Source of the DNA: a virus
DNA: 41,317 nt
Direction: 5' to 3' (one strand)
IMG/VR virus record: IMGVR_UViG_3300023223_000591
Coordinates: 1-41,317 of that record
Shown here: positions 325-19,163 of the stretch, one piece after another
Position numbering within the stretch: position 1 is the first letter of the stretch
Layout: every line of letters starts with the position of its first letter
Made by a program: the position numbers and the translations under genes
The notes under the pieces: model-generated
Databases searched by the model: none
The model's input: only the letters and a program-made list of their open reading frames with translations
Told to the model about the DNA's origin: nothing

Positions 325-644
325 ATAGGGTAATTCTCTGGCAAGCCTTCTTCATACAGTTTATGACGCAGCAAATACCCCTCTAACGCCCATATCTTAT
401 TCCGAGCATTACCCCTAGCTATCTTGCGTCCAAGCGCTGCGTCGAAGTTCTCAGGGCTTGCACAGGCACTCTCCCCCAATACAGTGTAGCCATTAGCTAA
501 AGTCAGTAGGCAAGCTGTAAATGTGGTGCCAGGGAACACATGATAGGACTCTGAAGTAATTACACCATCTAAATCAGATTCTTTAATTCGCGGAGCTGTT
601 AAGCCTTTTGCTTGGATTTCTTTTTCAATATCAGTATCGGTCAT
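321..644 (-). CDS. Gp49-like phage protein
   Basis: The 107-residue product matches the phage Gp49-like family. It has the N-terminal EIQAKGLTAPRI segment, the GESACASPENFD motif and the following GRKIARGNARNKIW, which are the family hallmarks, and the length is normal. The family is common in temperate and lytic phages and has no established activity. It is read against its neighbours and converges on the gene at 34-324 with overlapping stops. An AAGAGA ribosome-binding site lies upstream of the ATG. Confidence 0.85.
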   Translation of the reverse strand: MTDTDIEKEIQAKGLTAPRIKESDLDGVITSESYHVFPGTTFTACLLTLANGYTVLGESACASPENFDAALGRKIARGNARNKIWALEGYLLRHKLYEEGLPENYPI

Positions 645-699
645 TGTATCAATCTCTTATTCAGTCATGGCTAAATTGCCAATTACCAGTATACCACGA

Positions 700-727
700 T
701 TGACAAATCAGCCTGGTAAGATAGAAT
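700..727 (+). promoter_or_regulatory. Sigma-70 promoter for a small RNA
   Basis: A perfect -35 (TTGACA, 700-705), a 16-base spacer and a near-consensus -10 (TAGAAT, 722-727) point rightward into a segment with no convincing gene that ends at a strong intrinsic terminator. It is one of the best sigma-70 promoter matches I found in the window. Confidence 0.7.
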
Positions 728-733
728 TGTAAA

Positions 734-874
734 TGTAGTACGGACGTTGGGGAACGTCTTAAAAGGTAAAGATGATGAAAGGGTTAATGTATGCAGGTTT
801 TGGTGAGTCGGGTAAGTCCCCTACTTCATCATCACCGCCCAATCATCAGGGCTTGCATTCATTAGCCCTTTTTT
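734..874 (+). ncRNA. Candidate phage small RNA
   Basis: The segment from about seven bases after the -10 box to the terminator would give an RNA of about 140 nt. It contains a perfect hairpin GACGTT-GGGG-AACGTC (743-758), a nine-pair stem GATGATGAA/TTCATCATC (771-779 with 825-833) enclosing a smaller GGG/CCC hairpin, and the terminator hairpin. A 36-codon frame from 771 (MMKGLMYAGFGESGKS...) overlaps it but has only a weak AGG ribosome site and runs through the terminator, so I treat the RNA as the product. The function is unknown. Confidence 0.55.
849..874 (+). terminator. Rho-independent terminator
   Basis: A GGGCT/AGCCC stem (849-853 with 864-868) with a ten-base loop is followed directly by six T residues (869-874). 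It ends the transcript started by the promoter at 700-727. Confidence 0.8.
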
Positions 875-984
875 GTGTCTAAACGATCTGCTCGATGTTC
901 ACCTGGTTCTCTCACCAGGCTTAAGAGTTTAGCAGCGTTGCTAGTGAGAGCTGGTAGGCACACCCTTCTAAGAATCCTTCCTAC
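875..984 (+). other. Structured spacer upstream of the branched RNA block
   Basis: No gene is visible here. There is a hairpin CCTGGT-TCTCTC-ACCAGG (902-919). A competing seven-pair stem joins CTCTCAC (909-915) to GTGAGAG (944-950), so the two folds exclude each other. GCACAC just downstream can pair with GTGTGC (986-991), the start of the next element's outer stem, offering a second possible switch. This is seen in sequence only; no function is known. Confidence 0.4.
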
Positions 985-1122
985 AGTGTGCATTGATGAG
1001 AGTAAAGCCGCGATAGGCAGAGCGAAACTGTAGCGGTGGCTGAATGTTATGTTACTCCCTAACCCTAGGTTCCGTAGGACTTGGAGTAAATCGGACCCTG
1101 GCCACTCTCTTCAATGCACATT
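985..1122 (+). ncRNA. Branched structured RNA element A
   Basis: An outer stem of 19 positions joins 985-1003 to 1104-1122 with one mismatch and one G-U. Inside are two hairpin domains: one closed by CCGC/GCGG (1008-1011 with 1033-1036) and one by TTACTCC/GGAGTAA (1052-1058 with 1083-1089). The 3' arm (CACTCT..TCAATGCA) resembles the 3' arms of the elements at 40124-40237 and 40702-40854. The strand is assigned from the neighbouring plus-strand gene at 1387. Confidence 0.5.
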
Positions 1123-1133
1123 CAACGTCTGCA

Positions 1134-1237
1134 TAGTGTAATTAGTGGTGGTACTGGTGAATAGTCACCGAATTAGCGTTGGGTAAGACGTTCAGCAGGG
1201 CGCTAACTGCAAGCCGGTATCACCCCTAATTACATTA
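1134..1237 (+). ncRNA. Branched structured RNA element B
   Basis: A 25-position outer stem joins 1134-1158 to 1213-1237 with one mismatch and four G-U pairs. The core is TGTAATTAG (1137-1145) against CTAATTACA (1226-1234). An internal hairpin TTAGCG/CGCTAA (1173-1178 with 1201-1206) lies inside, and a GGTGA/TCACC hairpin (1156-1160 with 1165-1169) competes with the inner end of the stem. The architecture parallels elements A and C. Confidence 0.5.
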
Positions 1238-1239
1238 AA

Positions 1240-1359
1240 GAGTTTGTATTTGTGGCGGTTGTGGTGATCTCATAATGTCCTTAATGGAGATCAAGTTATT
1301 TACTTACAGGTAGGATCTGATCAATGTAAATATGCCACTTCCACCTCAAATACAGATTC
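1240..1359 (+). ncRNA. Branched structured RNA element C, leader of the Cro-like gene
   Basis: A long imperfect outer stem joins 1240-1266 to 1333-1359, with TGTATTTG/CAAATACA at its heart and four mismatches. It encloses two hairpins, GATCTC/GAGATC (1266-1271 with 1287-1292) and TATTTAC/GTAAATA (1297-1303 with 1326-1332), forming a three-way junction. It ends 27 bases before the start codon at 1387, so it may act as a cis-acting leader for that gene. Confidence 0.5.
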
Positions 1360-1386
1360 ACAGGTCTATGATTAATGGAGGAAGTC

Positions 1387-1590
1387 ATGAAAGATATTTG
1401 TTCACTCAATGAAGCAATAGTATCGTTAGAGGCAGAGCATGGAGGATTAAGAGCTGCAGCAAGAGCGTTAGACTTAGACGCAGGCTATCTATCAAGATTG
1501 AAAAATGGCGATAGTTTCAACCCGTCTGGTGATGTGGTAAATAAGTTAGGTCTTATTAAAATGGTCTATTATATAAAAAAGCCCCGTTGA
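1387..1590 (+). CDS. Cro/CI-like helix-turn-helix regulator
   Basis: The product has 67 residues. Residues 18-42 (GGLRAAARALDLDAGYLSRLKNG) read as a helix-turn-helix: an AARAL first helix, a DAGYLSRL recognition helix and the final K-x-G seen in Cro-type proteins. I start at 1387 because GGAGG sits six bases upstream; an in-frame ATG at 1375 has no such site. It is the only obvious repressor-type gene. It lies downstream of three folded RNA elements and ends inside a terminator hairpin for the opposite strand. Whether it controls the early region is inference. Confidence 0.75.
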   Translation: MKDICSLNEAIVSLEAEHGGLRAAARALDLDAGYLSRLKNGDSFNPSGDVVNKLGLIKMVYYIKKPR

Positions 1591-1608
1591 CTGTTAAACC
1601 AACGAGGC
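1575..1608 (-). terminator. Minus-strand intrinsic terminator
   Basis: On the minus strand a GCCTCGTTG/CAACGGGGC stem (1600-1608 with 1581-1589, one mismatch) is followed by six T residues. It overlaps the end of the plus-strand gene at 1387-1590. I see no minus-strand gene to the right that it would serve, so an unrecognised minus transcript may end here. Confidence 0.65.
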
Positions 1609-2002
1609 GTATATTGAATTAATGCCGGGTAGTGCTGGCGAATCAAGCTAAACAGGTTTGAGTGTTGAAGTACTTAATTGCCACCGGCAAGACAATTCTA
1701 ACTCACCTCTCCGTTTGATTCCAGCCCACCCTGCATTTAGGTTTACGATGCAGTTCGATCCCTTGCGAAAGCTAGATTATCGAGACCCAAATTCCGAGCA
1801 ATGTTTGCCGACTAGTAACAACTCGGGCCGCAAAGCCGCACCATTAATAATTACTGAGTAATTTAGGTGTTTAATATGGCAGGGGGTGGAGACGCTTAGT
1901 ATCGTAAATACATTGAGTTGTATTCCTTCGTTAAGACTTGCAATAGGCAGGCAGGGGGTGGAGAAAAGTCGGCTTCCTGTGCCTTTAATTTAAGGAAACT
2001 TT
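1609..2002. other. Structured non-coding region before the HNH gene
   Basis: About 390 bases without a convincing gene; a 67-codon frame at 1658-1861 lacks a ribosome site and protein-like composition. Paired segments include GAATT...AATTC (1616-1620 with 1694-1698) with TGCCGG/CCGGCA inside it, TTGAGT/ACTTAA (1658-1663 with 1672-1677), CTGCAT/ATGCAG (1731-1736 with 1748-1753) and CCGAG/CTCGG (1794-1798 with 1822-1826). GTTCGATCCC follows the third hairpin, like a tRNA T loop without a proper stem. A 15-base direct repeat is also present. Confidence 0.4.
1878..1964. repeat. 15-bp direct repeat pair
   Basis: GGCAGGGGGTGGAGA occurs at 1878-1892 and again at 1950-1964, 72 bases apart, in the non-coding stretch before the HNH gene. 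No start codon follows at ribosome-site distance, so they are not ribosome sites for any gene I see. Confidence 0.8.
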
Positions 2003-2464
2003 ATGTCTAAAACATTAAAACAGCTATGTATTGATCGAGGTGTGGAGTATTACGAAAGAGGTAATAACGGCCATATACAGCTTAAAGGCGCTTTGTTAGT
2101 CAACTACTATCCCAATAGTAAGAATAAGTCTGCGTATGTTGCAGGAACTAAGAAAGCGCTCAAGGGTGTTACTCACGAACAGGCTATTGATATGTGCTTT
2201 AACGCTCCTGTCAGCCAGGGCAAGAACGATACTCGCGGTCGTAATGGCAGGCGCAAAAGAGCACAGATGCTAAAGAAGGGGATTACTAAGTGCTATTGGT
2301 GTAAATGCCCCTTAACGCTCGATACAAGCACAATAGAACACATCATACCGTTAGTAAGGGGTGGCCTTGAACATTCAAACAATAGGACGTTAGCGTGCGA
2401 GGATTGCAATCATGGCAGGGGTAGTGATATGCCAGAGCTGAGCACATCTAACCCACGCTCTTAG
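2003..2464 (+). CDS. HNH endonuclease
   Basis: The 153-residue product has an HNH nuclease domain in its C-terminal half. Zinc-binding CYWC at 97-100 is followed by IEHIIP (111-116) with the catalytic-type His, HSNN at 124-127 and CEDCNHGRG at 132-140. This order fits a complete C-x2-C HNH fold. The N-terminal 80 residues are unassigned, with a basic RGRNGRRKRAQ link. AAGGAA precedes the ATG. It could be a free-standing homing nuclease, given the unusual structured DNA just upstream, or a packaging or repair nuclease; its distance from the terminase favours the first. Confidence 0.85.
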   Translation: MSKTLKQLCIDRGVEYYERGNNGHIQLKGALLVNYYPNSKNKSAYVAGTKKALKGVTHEQAIDMCFNAPVSQGKNDTRGRNGRRKRAQMLKKGITKCYWCKCPLTLDTSTIEHIIPLVRGGLEHSNNRTLACEDCNHGRGSDMPELSTSNPRS

Positions 2465-2527
2465 TGGACAGTATTGATTAAAACAAACACAGTACAATTA
2501 TTGATCAATTAATCGAAGGGGAATGAT

Positions 2528-6286: not shown

Positions 6287-6647
6287 TGCTGTAATGTCTC
6301 AGGCAGCGCTTGCACAAAGTTACACGGCAGAGTTGAAGTGGACGATACCGACAGAGAATTCAGACGGTAGTGCGTTGGATATCAATGATATTGAAAGGTA
6401 TACGATTTATGATGCTTGTGCAAAAACGGTTCATTATGTCGATGACCCAAACGACACGGGAATTACTGTAGAATTTTTCCCGCCGACTTGCCATTATCGT
6501 ATGCTTACTGTTTTAAAAAATGGTATTGAAAGTGAAGCATCAGACTATGCAACAGCCACGATAGAAACCTATATTGATCCAGTGGTTCCTAAGCCCCCTG
6601 GATCAATCACGGTAACCATTACTGTTTCTGTGCCTGATCCTCAATAA
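6246..6647 (+). CDS. Secreted fibronectin-III-like protein
   Basis: I start at GTG 6246, preceded by AGAGGA, because it gives a typical signal peptide: IKKIIVMMLMTG core and an AALAQ cleavage region near residue 23. The rest (AELKWTIPTEN, then INDIERYTIYDA) has the look of a fibronectin type III domain of the kind found in phage and secreted proteins. It overlaps the previous gene by 41 bases. Export to the periplasm or surface is likely; the partner is unknown. Confidence 0.7.
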   Translation: MIKKIIVMMLMTGSAVMSQAALAQSYTAELKWTIPTENSDGSALDINDIERYTIYDACAKTVHYVDDPNDTGITVEFFPPTCHYRMLTVLKNGIESEASDYATATIETYIDPVVPKPPGSITVTITVSVPDPQ

Positions 6648-6648
6648 C

Positions 6649-6676
6649 TGTTATAATTCCCCTTTTGAATAAGGGG
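6649..6676 (+). promoter_or_regulatory. Extended -10 promoter and ribosome-site hairpin
   Basis: TGTTATAAT at 6649-6657 is a perfect extended -10 element, with no clear -35. A hairpin CCCCTT-TTGAAT-AAGGGG (6659-6664 with 6671-6676) follows; its 3' arm is the ribosome site for the gene at 6683. Upstream transcripts would hide that site, whereas transcripts starting at the local promoter would begin inside the hairpin and leave it free. Confidence 0.45.
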
Positions 6677-6682
6677 CAGGTC

Positions 6683-6760
6683 ATGTCAGGCAGTAACGGT
6701 ACAGCGCGCAAAGTAGCAAAAGCTAAGAAAAATAAAAAAGATAAAAAGAAACCTAAATGA
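6683..6760 (+). CDS. Tiny lysine-rich protein
   Basis: A 25-codon gene (MSGSNGTARKVAKAKKNKKD...) is very basic. It has a good AAGGGG ribosome site and overlaps the next start as ATGA, so translation is probably coupled. The function is unknown. Confidence 0.5.
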   Translation: MSGSNGTARKVAKAKKNKKDKKKPK

Positions 6761-7332
6761 TAAATTCTTTATATGAGCAGTATTCGATCTATTTCTATTT
6801 GGGCATCATGTTATTGCTAGCATGGCCCATCTACAAAAATAGATACAACGCTGCTTATTCTTCACTGATCGGCGTTTTTATCTTAATGTGCGCTCTCCAG
6901 CCATTTTTTGATAATGATCCCGATATATCAGAAAAGCAGGCATTCACTAACTACGCGTATATCATCGGGTTTAATTTTGTGTATTGCGTAGGGTGTTTTC
7001 GTTACGGAGACAATACATACTGGTTTTGGCTAGCATTATTAACCGGCATCCTATGCGGCTGGTCAGGCATCAACGCATTAATGTTTTACACCATGGTTTC
7101 GGAAAGAATAACCCCTGATCAATTTATAGCCTTTTTTGATAATGGTACAGTTGCTATAATCATCGTTAAGATAGTAATGACCTACTTACTAATTAAGGCC
7201 GCTGATGGGTATCGGGGAGACATGGCAATTTTTATTAGAAATCTTAAGGGTGATATGGGATTACTTACCCGGAATATTAAAGGCCACCGGCTTATTACTA
7301 ACCTACTACCTTCTAATCGCGAAAAGAGATAA
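6757..7332 (+). CDS. Multi-span membrane protein
   Basis: The 191-residue product has about five hydrophobic spans: YFYLGIMLLLAWPIY, SSLIGVFILMCALQPFF, YIIGFNFVYCVGCF, FWLALLTGILCGWSGI and IIIVKIVMTYLLI. A basic tail of about 45 residues follows. I do not recognise a family. Its place at the head of a cluster of membrane genes suggests the lysis cassette. The last 128 bases also encode the start of another gene in a second frame (7205). Confidence 0.75.
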   Translation: MINSLYEQYSIYFYLGIMLLLAWPIYKNRYNAAYSSLIGVFILMCALQPFFDNDPDISEKQAFTNYAYIIGFNFVYCVGCFRYGDNTYWFWLALLTGILCGWSGINALMFYTMVSERITPDQFIAFFDNGTVAIIIVKIVMTYLLIKAADGYRGDMAIFIRNLKGDMGLLTRNIKGHRLITNLLPSNREKR

Positions 7333-7432
7333 AAAAGATGGCGGACAGGGTGTTGATAGCGACGGGGATATTCGGACCGGCGTTGACGGCGTTGATGCAG
7401 ACCGCCGAAAAGACGACTATCCCCCTCGTTGA
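7205..7432 (+). CDS. Small single-span membrane protein, overlapping frame
   Basis: The 75-residue frame has one membrane span (LPGILKATGLLLTYYLLI) followed by KRDKKDGGQ and an acidic, basic tail. It overlaps the end of the gene at 6757 and the start of the gene at 7338, both in other frames. The span plus charged tail looks protein-like and similar overlap is common in phage lysis cassettes (holin, antiholin or spanin genes), but the ribosome site (AAGG, eight bases away) is modest. Confidence 0.45.
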   Translation: MGIGETWQFLLEILRVIWDYLPGILKATGLLLTYYLLIAKRDKKDGGQGVDSDGDIRTGVDGVDADRRKDDYPPR

Positions 7433-7586
7433 ATACAAGGTTTTCACTTTTGACCATTACCACGTTGCCATATCCGATATAGGATTTTGTATTGGGGTTT
7501 TGGCAGGATCGGCCACTCTAGGGCTAATTATCAAGAAAGTACTAAGTTACCGCAAAGATAAGAATGATACCGGTAACACCTCATAA
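7338..7586 (+). CDS. Putative holin
   Basis: The 82-residue product has a weakly hydrophobic N-terminal helix (VLIATGIFGPALTALMQ), a polar middle and a clear membrane span (ISDIGFCIGVLAGSATLGLII) ending in KKVLSYRKDKND. Size, the C-terminal basic tail and position among membrane genes fit a small class II-type holin. No sequence motif proves this. No recognisable endolysin follows. Confidence 0.5.
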   Translation: MADRVLIATGIFGPALTALMQTAEKTTIPLVEYKVFTFDHYHVAISDIGFCIGVLAGSATLGLIIKKVLSYRKDKNDTGNTS

Positions 7587-7768
7587 TACGAACAGAAACA
7601 CACCTAATATCAATTTAAACCACAAAGTAATACTAGGGCTAAGGTAAAAATAAAGGCGCTTAGAGCAGATACTATGGGATTCTCGAGATGGTGGCGGTCA
7701 CACTAGTAAAGCTAAGGCCAGTGCTCAGGCAAGGGCGATCAATTCAAGCCCTTAACCTCATAAGGCGA
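7587..7768. other. Intergenic region with hairpins
   Basis: No supported gene. There is a hairpin AAGGGC/GCCCTT (the 3' arm near 7748-7753) and CTAAG/CTTAG further left. A 33-codon open stretch ending at 7753 (…DGGGHTSKAKASAQARAINS…) lacks any ATG, GTG or TTG and may be a gene remnant. Confidence 0.4.
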
Positions 7769-7981
7769 TTAAGCAACGCGCCTCATCTGCCTAGTGACAG
7801 GCAGCAAAGGAAGAAGGAAGAATTGTAATCTCATTTCAATTGGGAATTGGTTGATATCAACAACAGCCCGAGATCCGTCATGCTCCCTAACGCCTAATAT
7901 TTCGCCGCCGAAATCAAACCAAAATATATTCGCATTAACTGAATCACGATCGGTAGCTAGATGTCTAATAGAAAGTCCCAT
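7769..7981 (-). CDS. Small hypothetical protein, isolated on the minus strand
   Basis: The 70-residue product (MGLSIRHLATDRDSVNANIF...) has strand-like segments and ends in a basic RQMRRVA. I start at 7981 because AAGGGAG lies eight bases upstream; the longer frame to 8038 has no site. A TATAAT at about 8010 on this strand could be its -10. It is the only minus-strand gene between 645 and 32259, which suggests separate expression or later acquisition. Confidence 0.6.
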   Translation of the reverse strand: MGLSIRHLATDRDSVNANIFWFDFGGEILGVREHDGSRAVVDINQFPIEMRLQFFLLPLLPVTRQMRRVA

Positions 7982-8131
7982 TTCGTTTACTCCCTTAGTT
8001 GATGTAATCATTATAATGTAACTGTAAAAAGTTTCCATCCCTTCGAAATAGCAAAGTTCTGCGCATAAACCACATGATTGTACTAGTCATTAACACACAC
8101 TCTCTAAGCTCAGATAAAAATAAAGAATATC

Positions 8132-8159
8132 TTGCAGGTAAACGAATATAAGTTACAAT
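8132..8159 (+). promoter_or_regulatory. Candidate promoter for the 8183-11838 gene run
   Basis: TTGCAG (8132-8137), 16 bases, then TACAAT (8154-8159). The -10 is good and the -35 moderate. It lies in the only sizeable gap before a long run of overlapping small genes. Confidence 0.4.
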
Positions 8160-8182
8160 GGAGTTAACTTAAGGGGGTGATA

Positions 8183-8398
8183 ATGAATAGGAATGCAAAG
8201 TATTGGAATACTAGTCGGCCTGTTGTCGATATGGAACCTATCCTTAAATCACAAATTGAGAGGGCAGAGGGCATATTAAAAACACTTCCCGAGAAGCTCT
8301 CATCTACTGATAGGATTATTTGTTCGTCTAGGCTCAAGTTGTTAAAACGCCAGTTAGCAGAAATCAACGTTCCACGTGGAGCACCAAAAGGAGATTGA
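8183..8398 (+). CDS. Small hypothetical protein
   Basis: The 71-residue product has a central helical region (MEPILKSQIERAEGILKTLPEKL) and a basic stretch. AAGGGGG before 8183 fixes the start, two codons inside the longest frame. It begins a run of tightly packed small genes. Confidence 0.65.
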   Translation: MNRNAKYWNTSRPVVDMEPILKSQIERAEGILKTLPEKLSSTDRIICSSRLKLLKRQLAEINVPRGAPKGD

Positions 8399-8399
8399 T

Positions 8400-8720
8400 A
8401 TGGTTGATAAAATTTGCAAGTGGAGCGCGATTATAGGCGGTTTATTTTTTTTATCCCTATCATCCACAGTTATTGCTATTGAGTGCTATGGGGATACGTT
8501 ATTGAAAAACTGGTATAATGACCTAGTAAATCTGTCGTTTTATCAGTTAATCAGTATGACGATATTTTTGTTAGGTGCTTTCTTAAGTTTCGTTTATTTA
8601 CTTTGGGATGATAACAAGAGAATACAATCCAAAATAGCTGAAAATAATGGAATAATCAAAGACCTGGAAAAGGTAGTGGCAGATCTGGAAATAAGTGGGG
8701 TGACTAATGAAAAGACGTAA
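8400..8720 (+). CDS. Two-span membrane protein with coiled coil
   Basis: The 106-residue product has spans at about 8-27 (WSAIIGGLFFLSLSSTVIAI) and 47-67 (LISMTIFLLGAFLSFVYLL), then a heptad-like tail (KIAENNGIIKDLEKVVADLE). AAAGGAG before 8400 sets the start. Span plus coiled coil recalls inner-membrane spanins or anchoring proteins, but no family is recognised. Confidence 0.65.
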   Translation: MVDKICKWSAIIGGLFFLSLSSTVIAIECYGDTLLKNWYNDLVNLSFYQLISMTIFLLGAFLSFVYLLWDDNKRIQSKIAENNGIIKDLEKVVADLEISGVTNEKT

Positions 8721-10479: not shown

Positions 10480-10603
10480 TGCAGAGTGGTGGAATTAGGT
10501 ATACACAACCCAAGCGCAGGCAATGACAATAAGCTCCCTGCACAACCGCCCTCGATATGCTTTGGGAGAGGGATTGCAGGTTCGAGTCCTGCCTCTGCAA
10601 CCA
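10480..10603 (+). tRNA. tRNA-like element with Leu/Ser-type ends and aberrant middle
   Basis: The outer parts are canonical: acceptor TGCAGAG/CTCTGCA (10480-10486 with 10593-10599), U8, a Leu-type D arm (GTG...CAC, 10489-10506), a T arm GCAGG-TTCGAGT-CCTGC (10576-10592), A73 and an encoded CCA. The middle (10507-10575, 69 nt against about 33 in tRNA-Leu) has no seven-base anticodon loop. Instead CCCAAGC pairs with GCTTTGGG (10509-10515 with 10559-10566, one bulge) and encloses a GCAGG/CCTGC hairpin. It may be a tRNA pseudogene, an interrupted tRNA or a tRNA mimic. Confidence 0.55.
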
Positions 10604-11851: not shown

Positions 11852-12421
11852 ATGCCAAAAGAAAAGAAAGAAGTGAAAGAGAACAAAGACAAGAACAAGG
11901 GCGGTGGCCCTAAAAACGAGAATAACCTAACAGATAAGCAGCAACTTTTTTGCGAAGAATACCTCATTGATTTGAATGCTACACAGGCTGCAATAAGGGC
12001 TGGATACAGTGAAAAAACATCATCAGAAATGGGTTACGAGAACCTCAATAAACCTCAGATAGCTCAATATATAACCTATTTGAGAGCAAAAAGAGAGAAA
12101 AGGACCGAAGTAACTAGCGATAGAGTGGTGAAAGAATTGGCCAAGCTGGCCTTTTTTAACATGGAAGATGTCATTGATGAGCGGGGTGTCACTAAGGAGC
12201 TAACCGAGTGGAGTAGAGATGATCTAGCGGCTATTCAGGAGGTCACAGAGGACAAACTAGGCAGCGAAGAGGATGCAGTAATAATAAGGCGCAAGGTCAA
12301 GGTAAGCGATAAGAAGGCCTCCTTAGAACTATTGGCAAGGCACTTAGGCATATTTAACGACAAAATAAATATAGAAGGAATCACCTTCAACATGGACTAC
12401 GGCAAAAATGAGGCAGATTGA
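11852..12421 (+). CDS. Terminase small subunit
   Basis: The 189-residue product matches the Terminase_2 family, the DNA-recognition subunit of the packaging motor. After a lysine-rich N-terminus, residues 25-75 hold the helix-turn-helix signature LTDKQQLFCEEYLIDLNATQ followed by AAIRAGYSEKTSSEMGYENL; the C-terminal region (KKASLELLARHLGIFND) is the usual oligomerisation and motor-contact end. AGAGGCAAG precedes the ATG. It overlaps the large subunit gene by 14 bases. Confidence 0.93.
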   Translation: MPKEKKEVKENKDKNKGGGPKNENNLTDKQQLFCEEYLIDLNATQAAIRAGYSEKTSSEMGYENLNKPQIAQYITYLRAKREKRTEVTSDRVVKELAKLAFFNMEDVIDERGVTKELTEWSRDDLAAIQEVTEDKLGSEEDAVIIRRKVKVSDKKASLELLARHLGIFNDKINIEGITFNMDYGKNEAD

Positions 12422-13979
12422 TTACCACGCAGAGCCCACAGCCGCCAAGTTTCATGCATCCGATAAGCTAGTCAGAGGCTTTCTAGGTCCGGTCGGTAAC
12501 GGTAAGTCAGTCACCTGCATCATGGAGATGTTACGCATAGCCTATGAGCAGTGGCCTAACAACAAGGGCGTGCGTAAGACTCGATGGGCAATCATCCGCA
12601 ATACCAATCCAGAGCTAAGAACAACAACACTCAATACCTGGAAGCAATGGATACCTGAATCCATTAGCCCGGTAGTCATGCACCCCATCATCACTACAAA
12701 GTTCATTCAAACGATCAAGAACGATGGCACTAGCATTGAGATGGAGGTGTACTTTCTAGCATTAGATAAGCCTGATGACGTCAAGAAGCTGCTCTCAATG
12801 GAGCTATCAGGGGTATTCATCAATGAAGCAAGGGAAATGCCCTATGTCATTGTAAAGGCTGCCAGAGAGCGCATAGGACGCTATCCAGCTGCTATCGATG
12901 GATACACAGCTACTGATAAGTACACGCCCCCTGAAGACATCTGCCGCCGTAAATGCCTGATCATGGACACCAACCCACCTGACACTGATCATTGGTGGTA
13001 CCAGTTGGCCGAGGAGGGTTGTTTAAAGAACTCAACCAACAAGCCATTAGCCATCAAGCAAGTAGCAGAAGTGTTTGATTTCTTTCGTGGACCGGCGCCA
13101 CTGATCAAGCAGGATGACGATACCTATCTGCCAAACCCTAAAGCTGAGAACATGGGTCACCTGCCTGGTGGTTATAAGTACTATCTGGATATGATCGCTG
13201 GTAATACTGAAGATCACATCAATGTACAGGTATTGGGTAACTACGGTGTAATCAAGGAAGGCAAGCTGGTTTATGAGCGCTATAACGATAGATTGCATTG
13301 TGCCGAGAAACACTTCCTACCTATTGAAGGGCTGGATATCTGCTTAGGGTGGGATTTTGGTCTAACTCCGGCGTGTATCATTGGTCAGATAACCGAGACC
13401 AGCCAAGTTAGGATCATCGCAGAGCTCACCAGTGAAGACATGCATGTAAGGCAATTCGCTCGGGATGTTGTTAAACCCTTTCTTCAAAACAAGTTTGGTA
13501 AGTTTCGTATCGGCTTTAGCTTTGCCGATCCAGCAGGCTCAAACAGGGGGGAGGGTGAGGGTAAGTCAGCGATAAAGATACTCAATGACGAGCACATAAT
13601 TAATGATGACGGTGATGTCATTGTGCCATTGGATATGGGATTCATTACAGAACCGGCACCCACTAACGACCCGACTAGGCGTCAAGATTCTGTCAACTCA
13701 TTCTTAATAAGATTGGTTGGCAGTGGTGAGCCTGGATTCATAATGGATAAGCGCTGTAAGATGCTGCGTAAAGGCTTTCAAGGTGGATACCACTACAAAC
13801 GCATACAGGCAGGAGGTGTTGAGGACAGATACCGCGATGTACCCAACAAGAACCAGTTCTCACACTCTCATGACGCACTACAATACCTATGCTTAGGATT
13901 CGCTGGTGGTTATGTCACACAATCGCATGATGAGTATGGCCAACATGAGGACGAGTACCGGGAGACCGGCTATTGGTAA
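12408..13979 (+). CDS. Terminase large subunit
   Basis: The 523-residue product is the packaging ATPase-nuclease. Walker A is GPVGNGKS at 27-34; the Walker B region is LSGVFINEARE; the RNase H-like nuclease has GWDFGLTPA, then SFADPAGSNR and the final HSHDALQYL, each supplying an acidic metal ligand. Both domains look intact and the length is normal. With the small subunit it recognises concatemeric DNA and drives it through the portal at 14284. The P22-like virion genes nearby suggest headful packaging, which would agree with a circularly permuted genome. Confidence 0.95.
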   Translation: MRQIDYHAEPTAAKFHASDKLVRGFLGPVGNGKSVTCIMEMLRIAYEQWPNNKGVRKTRWAIIRNTNPELRTTTLNTWKQWIPESISPVVMHPIITTKFIQTIKNDGTSIEMEVYFLALDKPDDVKKLLSMELSGVFINEAREMPYVIVKAARERIGRYPAAIDGYTATDKYTPPEDICRRKCLIMDTNPPDTDHWWYQLAEEGCLKNSTNKPLAIKQVAEVFDFFRGPAPLIKQDDDTYLPNPKAENMGHLPGGYKYYLDMIAGNTEDHINVQVLGNYGVIKEGKLVYERYNDRLHCAEKHFLPIEGLDICLGWDFGLTPACIIGQITETSQVRIIAELTSEDMHVRQFARDVVKPFLQNKFGKFRIGFSFADPAGSNRGEGEGKSAIKILNDEHIINDDGDVIVPLDMGFITEPAPTNDPTRRQDSVNSFLIRLVGSGEPGFIMDKRCKMLRKGFQGGYHYKRIQAGGVEDRYRDVPNKNQFSHSHDALQYLCLGFAGGYVTQSHDEYGQHEDEYRETGYW

Positions 13980-18018: not shown

Positions 18019-18482
18019 GTCAACCTAAGCGTGGTCGACCAAGAGCGGATAAGACTGATTCGCAAATAGAAAACACCCGAGTTGAATTGCAGACAGACCG
18101 TATAGAAGAGGCTCACAGTCCCAATAGGCCGCCCCGTGTACCAATGAGCTCCACACTAAAGCTTAAGTTTGGTTCAGTTACTGATGATCCTAATTACCAT
18201 TTCAGGGTGTTTTCCGATCGTGACGGGCGCATTGAGCAGGCAAAACAAGCATGGTATGAGCACGTAAAAGACGGCAACGGCGACAATATCGTGCGTCATA
18301 GCGGCCCATATACTCAGTATTTGATGAAAATAAAGAAGAAATACTGGGATGCAGACCAATTATTGAAGCAAAAAAGCTTATCTGCTAAAATCCAGGAAGA
18401 GCAAAAGTTAGCCAATGATGAATACGTGCCCGATGGCCGCCATCATGTGCTACAGAAAGACGATTACGATCCGTTAGCATAA
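18015..18482 (+). CDS. Conserved structural or assembly protein
   Basis: The 155-residue product has a basic AT-hook-like start (KRGRPRADK) and a conserved block (YHFRVFSDRDGRIEQAKQAW, then SGPYTQYLMKIKKKYWDAD). It overlaps the scaffold stop (ATGA) and precedes the capsid genes, as in related podoviruses. Its exact job is unknown. Confidence 0.7.
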   Translation: MSQPKRGRPRADKTDSQIENTRVELQTDRIEEAHSPNRPPRVPMSSTLKLKFGSVTDDPNYHFRVFSDRDGRIEQAKQAWYEHVKDGNGDNIVRHSGPYTQYLMKIKKKYWDADQLLKQKSLSAKIQEEQKLANDEYVPDGRHHVLQKDDYDPLA

Positions 18483-18487
18483 GAAAG

Positions 18488-18546
18488 AGATTAGAGGCTT
18501 AGCCCTCAATCTCAGTCACCAGTCAAAGATTCTGGAAGTGATTGAG
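18488..18546 (+). promoter_or_regulatory. Two mutually exclusive hairpins before the capsid genes
   Basis: Hairpin 1 joins 18488-18497 to 18504-18512 (nine pairs, one bulged A, loop CTTAGC). Hairpin 2 joins CTCAATC (18505-18511) to GATTGAG (18540-18546) and stacks a CCAG/CTGG hairpin inside. The shared CTCAATC allows only one at a time. No T run follows, so processing or RNA stability control is as likely as attenuation. The rest of the gap to 18614 has an ATGTT-TTT-AACAT hairpin just before the ribosome site. Confidence 0.45.
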
Positions 18547-18614
18547 AATGTGAACTGTATTTCCATTTTGGAAGTATGGTTAATCATGTTTTTAACATTT
18601 TCAGGAGTCAAATC

Positions 18615-19163
18615 ATGGCTGGTTTTAATTACGTAAAATCACAAACAGGCGGGGGGACTACGGGGCATGTTTTTACATATGCCGTCGATGCTGCCCACGC
18701 CACCTTACTAGCACCAGGGGATGCCGTTGTCATTACAGGTGATGGCGATGCTTTTGGTGTATCAGAAGTCGATACTGGTAATACCGCTACAGCAAATACT
18801 GGTGTTCTTGAGTCGGTAAAAGTCAATCCAAATACCTTAAATCAAACCGGGCTAGCTGCATCCACACTGGGTGAAGTTAGAGTTCGCATTGATCAATTTG
18901 CTTTGTATGAGATTGATGCAGACGCGACTTATAACGCCGCTAGTGTTGGTTTGAATACAGGTATTAACGTCACTACCGCCACATCAACAGGCACTGTTGC
19001 AATATCCAATATGACAGCGGATTTTGCCACGGTTGCCACCACGCAGACACTACCTTACCGAGTTGTTGCTCTTTTAGAAGACACAGCTGGCGTTCTTGGT
19101 AATCGTGTTCTACTTCGCCCTAACGCAAGCACCGCCTCTGATGGCGCGGCTGGCATCGCTTAA
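18615..19163 (+). CDS. Head decoration-type structural protein
   Basis: The 183-residue product is Ala/Thr/Gly-rich and strand-rich with almost no cysteine or charged helices. It precedes the coat gene directly, the usual place for decoration or head-stabilising proteins. The start at 18615 is set by CAGGAG; a frame from 18576 has no such site. Confidence 0.7.
   Translation: MAGFNYVKSQTGGGTTGHVFTYAVDAAHATLLAPGDAVVITGDGDAFGVSEVDTGNTATANTGVLESVKVNPNTLNQTGLAASTLGEVRVRIDQFALYEIDADATYNAASVGLNTGINVTTATSTGTVAISNMTADFATVATTQTLPYRVVALLEDTAGVLGNRVLLRPNASTASDGAAGIA

Follow-up and report, generated by a model that had tools for sequence, protein, structure and literature searches.

The window (the whole stretch of DNA analyzed, a 41,317-base virus record) carries six long-stem elements within about 2.3 kb on its circular map, at 777, 985, 1134, 1240, 40124, and 40702 (Table 1). 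This array is probably a source of stable phage RNAs that mimic tRNAs. In kind it is phage-encoded tRNA-like stable RNA, new in its stalked, arrayed form. We tentatively read it as an array of phage RNA genes whose tRNA-derived products are excised at their long closing stems ("stalks") and act as tRNA mimics or decoys, a reading that is plausible yet falls a little short of being probable. The window and its relatives indicate that phages can carry whole arrays of small RNAs with tRNA-like ends and no anticodon. If these RNAs are indeed tRNA decoys, an RNA-based form of counter-defense would join those already known, and some gaps without genes in phage genomes would have an explanation.

Stalked folds on a circular map

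Where does the array lie? The window holds genes for terminase, portal, capsid, a P22-gp10-like protein, Erf, NinG, and NinB, and from its sequence the genome is best read as circular and podovirus-like. Bases 1–59 are repeated exactly at 41156–41214, so the map is circular, with ~100 surplus bases at the end of the record, and the elements near 40 kb lie ~1.2–2.1 kb upstream of those at 985–1359. The last 103 bases (41215–41317) diverge from the sequence after base 59 and resemble an assembly tail or a variant. No ORF of at least 50 aa lies within 1034–1374. The small "Cro-like" ORF at 1387–1590 has only a weak PHROG match and no Pfam match, and no relatives of its protein were found in IMG/VR; among GenBank phages, nothing similar to window positions 640–2520 was found. 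An ECF-type sigma factor is encoded close to the array (38847–39275).

Are the folds more than ordinary intergenic sequence? The original prediction held that they are, having proposed three tandem branched folds at 985–1122, 1134–1237, and 1240–1359. All three are present, with long outer stems and branched interiors, and they are real, biased toward the + strand, and far above chance. Against dinucleotide shuffles they reach z −4.65 to −5.76 singly, with no shuffle as good as the real sequence, and the + strand of 985–1359 as a whole (minimum free energy [MFE] −141.8 kcal/mol) reaches z −7.7; the reverse strand reaches only z −4.2. Read on the + strand, the outer stems contain 17 G-U pairs against 3 A·C mismatches, a count that leans toward + because the fold was chosen on that strand. 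In a stem scan of the whole window, the top scores belong to 40702–40854 (50), 777–873 (47.5), 1134–1237 (46), and 985–1122 (37.5), against a maximum of 33 in shuffled windows; 1240–1359 scores 34, ungapped. Four real stems of at least 34 lie within 645–1386, while 17 of 1,000 dinucleotide shuffles of this stretch had one such stem and none had two.

Energy, strand bias, stem statistics, compensatory changes among paralogues, and the comparable array of a related phage all speak against ordinary intergenic sequence. The observation is confirmed and also enlarged, because 777–873, 40124–40237, and 40702–40854 belong to the array as well; the interpretation first given to it is partly supported. 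The element at 777–873, which ends in a T run, may be a terminator-ended small RNA. The stretch 1590–2003 folds with z −1.9 and was therefore left out of the array. Elsewhere in the window, the strongest local + strand fold relative to GC (residual z −5.3) lies at ~18481–18640 and covers the short gap between an ORF end at 18482 and an ORF start at 18576.

Table 1. Features of the array, of other tRNA-like sequences in the window, and of related elements in other viral DNA
Source	Feature	Coordinates	Strand	Details
Window	Promoter-like site, sigma-70-type TTGACA-16-TAGAAT	700..727	+	precedes array; 11/12 consensus bases, a consensus match only, the count of such sites not being above shuffles
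Window	Long-stem branched element ending in T run	777..873	+	−44.9 kcal/mol, z −8.72
Window	Stalked branched RNA 1	985..1122	+	−54.7 kcal/mol, z −4.96; outer stem 18 pairs
Window	Stalked branched RNA 2	1134..1237	+	−45.7 kcal/mol, z −5.76; outer stem 24 pairs
Window	Stalked branched RNA 3	1240..1359	+	−40.4 kcal/mol, z −4.65; outer stem 22 pairs
Window	"Cro-like" small helix-turn-helix-like ORF	1387..1590	+	67 aa; ORF and ribosome-binding site
Window	tRNA-Leu-like RNA, separate from array	10480..10603	+	acceptor TGCAGAG/CTCTGCA, Leu-type D-arm, long variable arm, T-arm, ACCA
Window	Stalked RNA with tRNA geometry	40124..40237	+	z −3.0; 22-bp stem, 3-nt linker, hairpin, 5-bp/7-nt hairpin flush with 3′ arm
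Window	Stalked tRNA-like RNA	40702..40854	+	−71.4 kcal/mol, z −8.50; 22–23-bp stem, two hairpins, canonical T-arm
Window	5′ acceptor-like strand TAGAGTG	40718..40724	+	pairs with 40832–40838
Window	T-arm GCGGG-TTCGATT-CCCGC	40815..40831	+	flush with acceptor strand CACTCTA, 40832–40838
L126	Stalked element	6337–6506		26-bp stalk
L126	Stalked element	6687–6877		24-bp stalk, Leu-type D-arm, flush T-arm, long insert replacing anticodon arm
L126	tRNA-like RNA	6883–6958		above Rfam tRNA cutoff; uncalled by ARAGORN
L126	tRNA-like RNA, almost without anticodon arm	7738–7801		above Rfam tRNA cutoff; uncalled by ARAGORN
L126	Stalked element	7808–7935		34-position stalk
L126	Element, member of tRNA-outline family	7954–8086
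L252, L290, L262, L268, L244, L249, L274, L296, L297, L301, L289, L303, L254, L292, L253, L251, L298, L279, L281, L264, L255, L273, L284, L271	Other members of tRNA-outline family

tRNA-like ends and paralogy

What sets these elements apart from other stable hairpins? The original prediction overlooked their tRNA-like ends (a T-arm with an acceptor), as it did the promoter-like site and the span of the array across the circular junction. In the 40702 element, the 7-bp acceptor helix that abuts the T-arm extends outward by ~15 more bp into the stalk, and the T-arm pairs have probabilities of 0.94–0.95. The Rfam tmRNA model partially matches this T-arm (E = 1.5e-4; 17 nt, 17 bits against a cutoff of 47); at permissive thresholds, all other Rfam matches in the window were chance matches. 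A scan for a T-arm plus a 7-bp acceptor found two places in the window, both on the + strand—the 40702 element (score 51) and 10480–10599 (42)—and none in six shuffled windows. Both places, the former at 40718–40838, have a 7-bp acceptor and a flush 5-bp T-arm with a TTCRANY loop, as in tRNAs; the elements at 985, 1134, and 1240 do not. In 2.75 Mb of other phage DNA, the outward extension of the acceptor was 0–5 for ordinary tRNA genes and at most 18 for chance matches, and the only case comparable in strength to 40702 was in the related record L126 (23.5).

The element at 40124–40237 ranks first in a sequence-free scan for geometry only (a stem, a 1–3-nt linker, a hairpin, and a flush 5–6-bp hairpin), with 57.5 against at most 44 in six shuffled windows, and the unconstrained MFE fold has a different interior, favored over the candidate T-arm-like hairpin by 5.8 kcal/mol. 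Two elements—40702 and, as a candidate, 40124—thus have tRNA-like ends in their modeled structures, with a T-arm or T-arm-like hairpin stacked on the acceptor helix.

None of this amounts to a conventional tRNA gene. ARAGORN called no tRNA and no tmRNA in the window, no whole-model tRNA (RF00005) match exceeded the gathering score there, and neither 40702 nor 10480 has an anticodon arm with a 7-nt loop. The RNA at 10480–10603 was missed by both ARAGORN and Rfam; its acceptor is perfect and its anticodon-like loop is oversized, at ~16 nt. We also considered 40702 as an attP copy of the end of a host tRNA and set this aside, since the element keeps its 5′ half and the palindrome runs on beyond that half.

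Are the elements related to one another? As judged by sequence comparison, 985–1122 is a paralogue of the tRNA-like elements near 40 kb, with its stalk kept by compensatory changes. Its 3′ end is identical to that of 40702 at 20 of 24 bases in a fixed register (binomial probability about 1e-8). Across the stalks of 985, 40124, and 40702, 93% of cells are paired, against 28–50% in slid registers, and four stalk pairs have changed on both sides among these three paralogues, the only ones available. The 3′ arms of all three folds had been described as resembling each other and those near 40 kb. This holds for 985, whereas the arms of 1134 and 1240 resemble neither the 40-kb arms nor each other beyond chance. 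The arms of 1134 do show a weak, borderline resemblance to the stalks of two L126 elements (6687–6877 and 6883–6958). Because 1134 and 1240 have only their layout in common with the 40-kb elements and carry no T-arm-like hairpin, and 985 has lost its own, the tRNA link of these three rests on array membership and on the paralogy of 985.

Relatives and a covarying family

Do other phages carry such arrays? The closest relative with one, L126 (IMGVR_UViG_3300022707_002948; terminase 68% identical), holds it in a gene-poor 2.2-kb stretch (6320–8545) that lies upstream of the terminase gene, as in the window. Such an array is absent from the sister phage L134/G011 (terminase 64%), which shows that this phage group can do without the elements. 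No array was found in other terminase relatives (G003, G007, G011, and more), and the stem list held none comparable for phages reached via a gp49-like gene. A more distant phage, G025 (terminase 37%), contains odd tRNA-like sequences (L222 7287–7470 and 8600–8900). They include a tRNA-like RNA in which a 4-nt loop replaces the anticodon loop, an acceptor/T minihelix, and a YrlA-like junction, whose match to YrlA (RF02553), at 37.6 bits, is below the cutoff.

A pattern search with the 3′ arms yielded no homologues. The stalked elements of one record that the pattern matched, L213, came to light by luck. Four of them, alike in their CCATAT(T)GAAACAT arms, are interspersed with eight tRNA genes at 11904–13005 (L224 14284–15385 is from the same record), and one of the four has a T-arm flush with its stalk. 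Our search of open-license papers found no description of stalked tRNA-like phage RNAs.

Following up the array also brought out a strongly covarying family, spread over many viral contigs and open to cloning and testing. One L126 element (7954–8086) and the reverse strand of L242, a phage contig in a Colwellia MAG (terminase 58%), have the hairpin GCUGAAAGUAGAAGC in common; the L242 element, the reverse complement of 1873–2135, has a 29-bp stalk. A pattern for this hairpin matched 58 viral DNA stretches, and among 295 genomes from the order of the Colwellia MAG, the L242 phage contig was its sole match. The same outline recurs at 26 loci, L126 and L242 included: an outer stem, a 2-nt linker (CG, once CU), a 4-bp hairpin, 49–174 nt, a 5-bp hairpin, and, ungapped, the outer 3′ strand. 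The D-like loop UGAAAGUAGAA is conserved. The 5-bp hairpin ends in a T-like loop of 8 nt, usually ANURACGC, although this hairpin was picked by a filter that required the flush junction and rewarded a loop of this type; the search pattern itself specified neither the fixed linker nor the flush junction nor the 3′ loop. The predicted outline is the layout of an acceptor, positions 8–9, a D-arm, and a T-arm.

Across the 22 equally long family sequences, pairing holds in 98.6% of cells and 11 of the 16 pairs have changed in both partners, with a covariation of 0.70 against 0.15 when shuffled and 0.05–0.11 when slid, values to be read with the knowledge that the outer stems were selected for complementarity and that the 5′ hairpin is invariant partly through search design. 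Members L271, L273, and L289 have genuine tRNA genes nearby on their own strand, at a distance of 4–110 nt. Three members searched in Rfam 15 had no match at E < 1 except one unrelated chance match. The interior of another member (L244 3163–3337, reverse strand) holds an extra canonical T-arm, GCGGG-TTCGAAT-CCCGC. We regard the family as a lead in its own right, reached via the L126 array, with the window elements as putative members only.

Proposed excision and role, and known systems

How might the array work? Its + strand transcript would probably start at the promoter-like site at 700–727, with the 40-kb part transcribed from upstream, and each compact RNA would be closed by an 18–24-pair stalk in which its leader pairs with its trailer. 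Near-perfect stems that span about two helical turns are likely RNase III substrates, so the stalks would free the RNAs; a double-strand-specific RNase of this type would cut them out of the common transcript. In rRNA precursors, a long leader-trailer duplex around a structured RNA serves as an RNase III processing stalk. The array resembles these precursors in that a long leader-trailer duplex, taken here as an excision device, encloses structured RNA; it differs in that the enclosed phage RNAs are 50–110 nt and the cleavage is putative.

We infer that phage tRNAs gave rise to these RNAs through duplication and the loss of a working anticodon arm. Having no anticodon arm, they could not decode, and the T-arm/acceptor half is therefore probably what a partner recognizes; once free, the RNAs would mimic tRNAs and keep a tRNA-binding protein occupied, with no part in decoding. 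The most likely partner would be a host enzyme that attacks tRNAs. A decoy role in counter-defense is our first choice, with a precedent in YrlA, a tRNA-like RNA proposed to inhibit an anticodon nuclease competitively (PMC7790460). It is possible, though doubtful, that the array is one instance of a widespread and so far undescribed class of phage tRNA mimics that lack a working anticodon, are excised at their stalks, and serve as decoys for tRNA-attacking or tRNA-monitoring host enzymes. Such a class would combine the stalked forms with a canonical T-arm (in the window, L126, and L213) and the covarying family of 26 loci, with its own D-loop and 8-nt T-loop, a grouping that we put forward with considerable reserve.

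Might the folds instead act in cis, as 5′ untranslated structures that stabilize an mRNA or control translation of the next small gene and are not excised? Ribosome-binding sequences do lie 2–20 nt past the stalks of 40124, 40702, and 1240 (past the last, the GGAGG of the next ORF starts after 16 nt), and the L242 element is directly followed by AAGGAG. In dense phage genomes, however, most intergenic stretches precede a gene anyway; 985 and 1134 precede another element rather than a gene, L126 and L213 hold elements with no gene behind them, and a UTR regulator would not be expected to carry a T-arm stacked directly on an acceptor helix. We consider cis action unlikely. An improbable alternative is that the elements are decaying remnants of a tRNA gene cluster without present function, as the T-arms, Leu-type D-arms, CCA-like ends, and absent or distorted anticodon arms would suggest. 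Decay would break the stems first, so the stalks count against it: they are near-perfect, with compensatory changes among the paralogues and among the 22 phage sequences of the related family.

Still more improbable are hairpins acting at the DNA level as sites of single-strand recombination (for example, like integron attC), replication origin, or packaging. Long imperfect palindromes do flank small genes here, but G-U pairs on one strand, the deeper fold on the + strand, and the T-arm sequence all point to RNA, and the arms differ between elements, so that there is no shared recombinase box. Finally, one large ornate RNA of the GOLLD or ROOL type, a comparison suggested at the outset that fits several hundred nucleotides of structured noncoding phage DNA, is scarcely credible, since no Rfam 15 family, GOLLD and ROOL included, attains its gathering score in any part of the window, the array matches neither of the two in sequence or structure, and it consists of modular, independently closed units of 100–155 nt with 2–11-nt spacers rather than one RNA of several hundred nucleotides.

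If the array does encode excised tRNA mimics, which known RNAs does it most resemble? Like YrlA and the bacterial Y RNAs (RF02553), its elements would combine a tail stem with a module that mimics a tRNA but does not work as one. Unlike in YrlA, the order from acceptor to T-arm is not permuted; the YrlA covariance model has no match in the window, and no Ro60/Rsr gene was found among the ~30 window proteins scanned, a subset of the ORFs. In 40702, as in tmRNA (RF00023), a T-arm and acceptor close a long insert, but the match is limited to the 17-nt T-arm, the stalk is extended, and neither a full tRNA-like domain nor a tag reading frame was identified.

To our knowledge, the T4 tRNA cluster holds two small stable RNAs without a known function. 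In that cluster, rnaC (species 1 RNA) is a 139-nt phage RNA with hairpin domains beside tRNAs, and near its 3′ end it carries a canonical T-arm, CCGGG-TTCGAAT-CCCGG, similar to those in 40702–40854 and in L213 12660–12766. The 40702–40854 element is likewise a phage RNA with hairpin domains and a 3′ T-arm, a likeness of architecture for which we claim no sequence homology. T4 rnaC differs from the array in sequence and in having no long leader-trailer stalk, and it is a single RNA beside working tRNAs, whereas the window holds a whole array without them.
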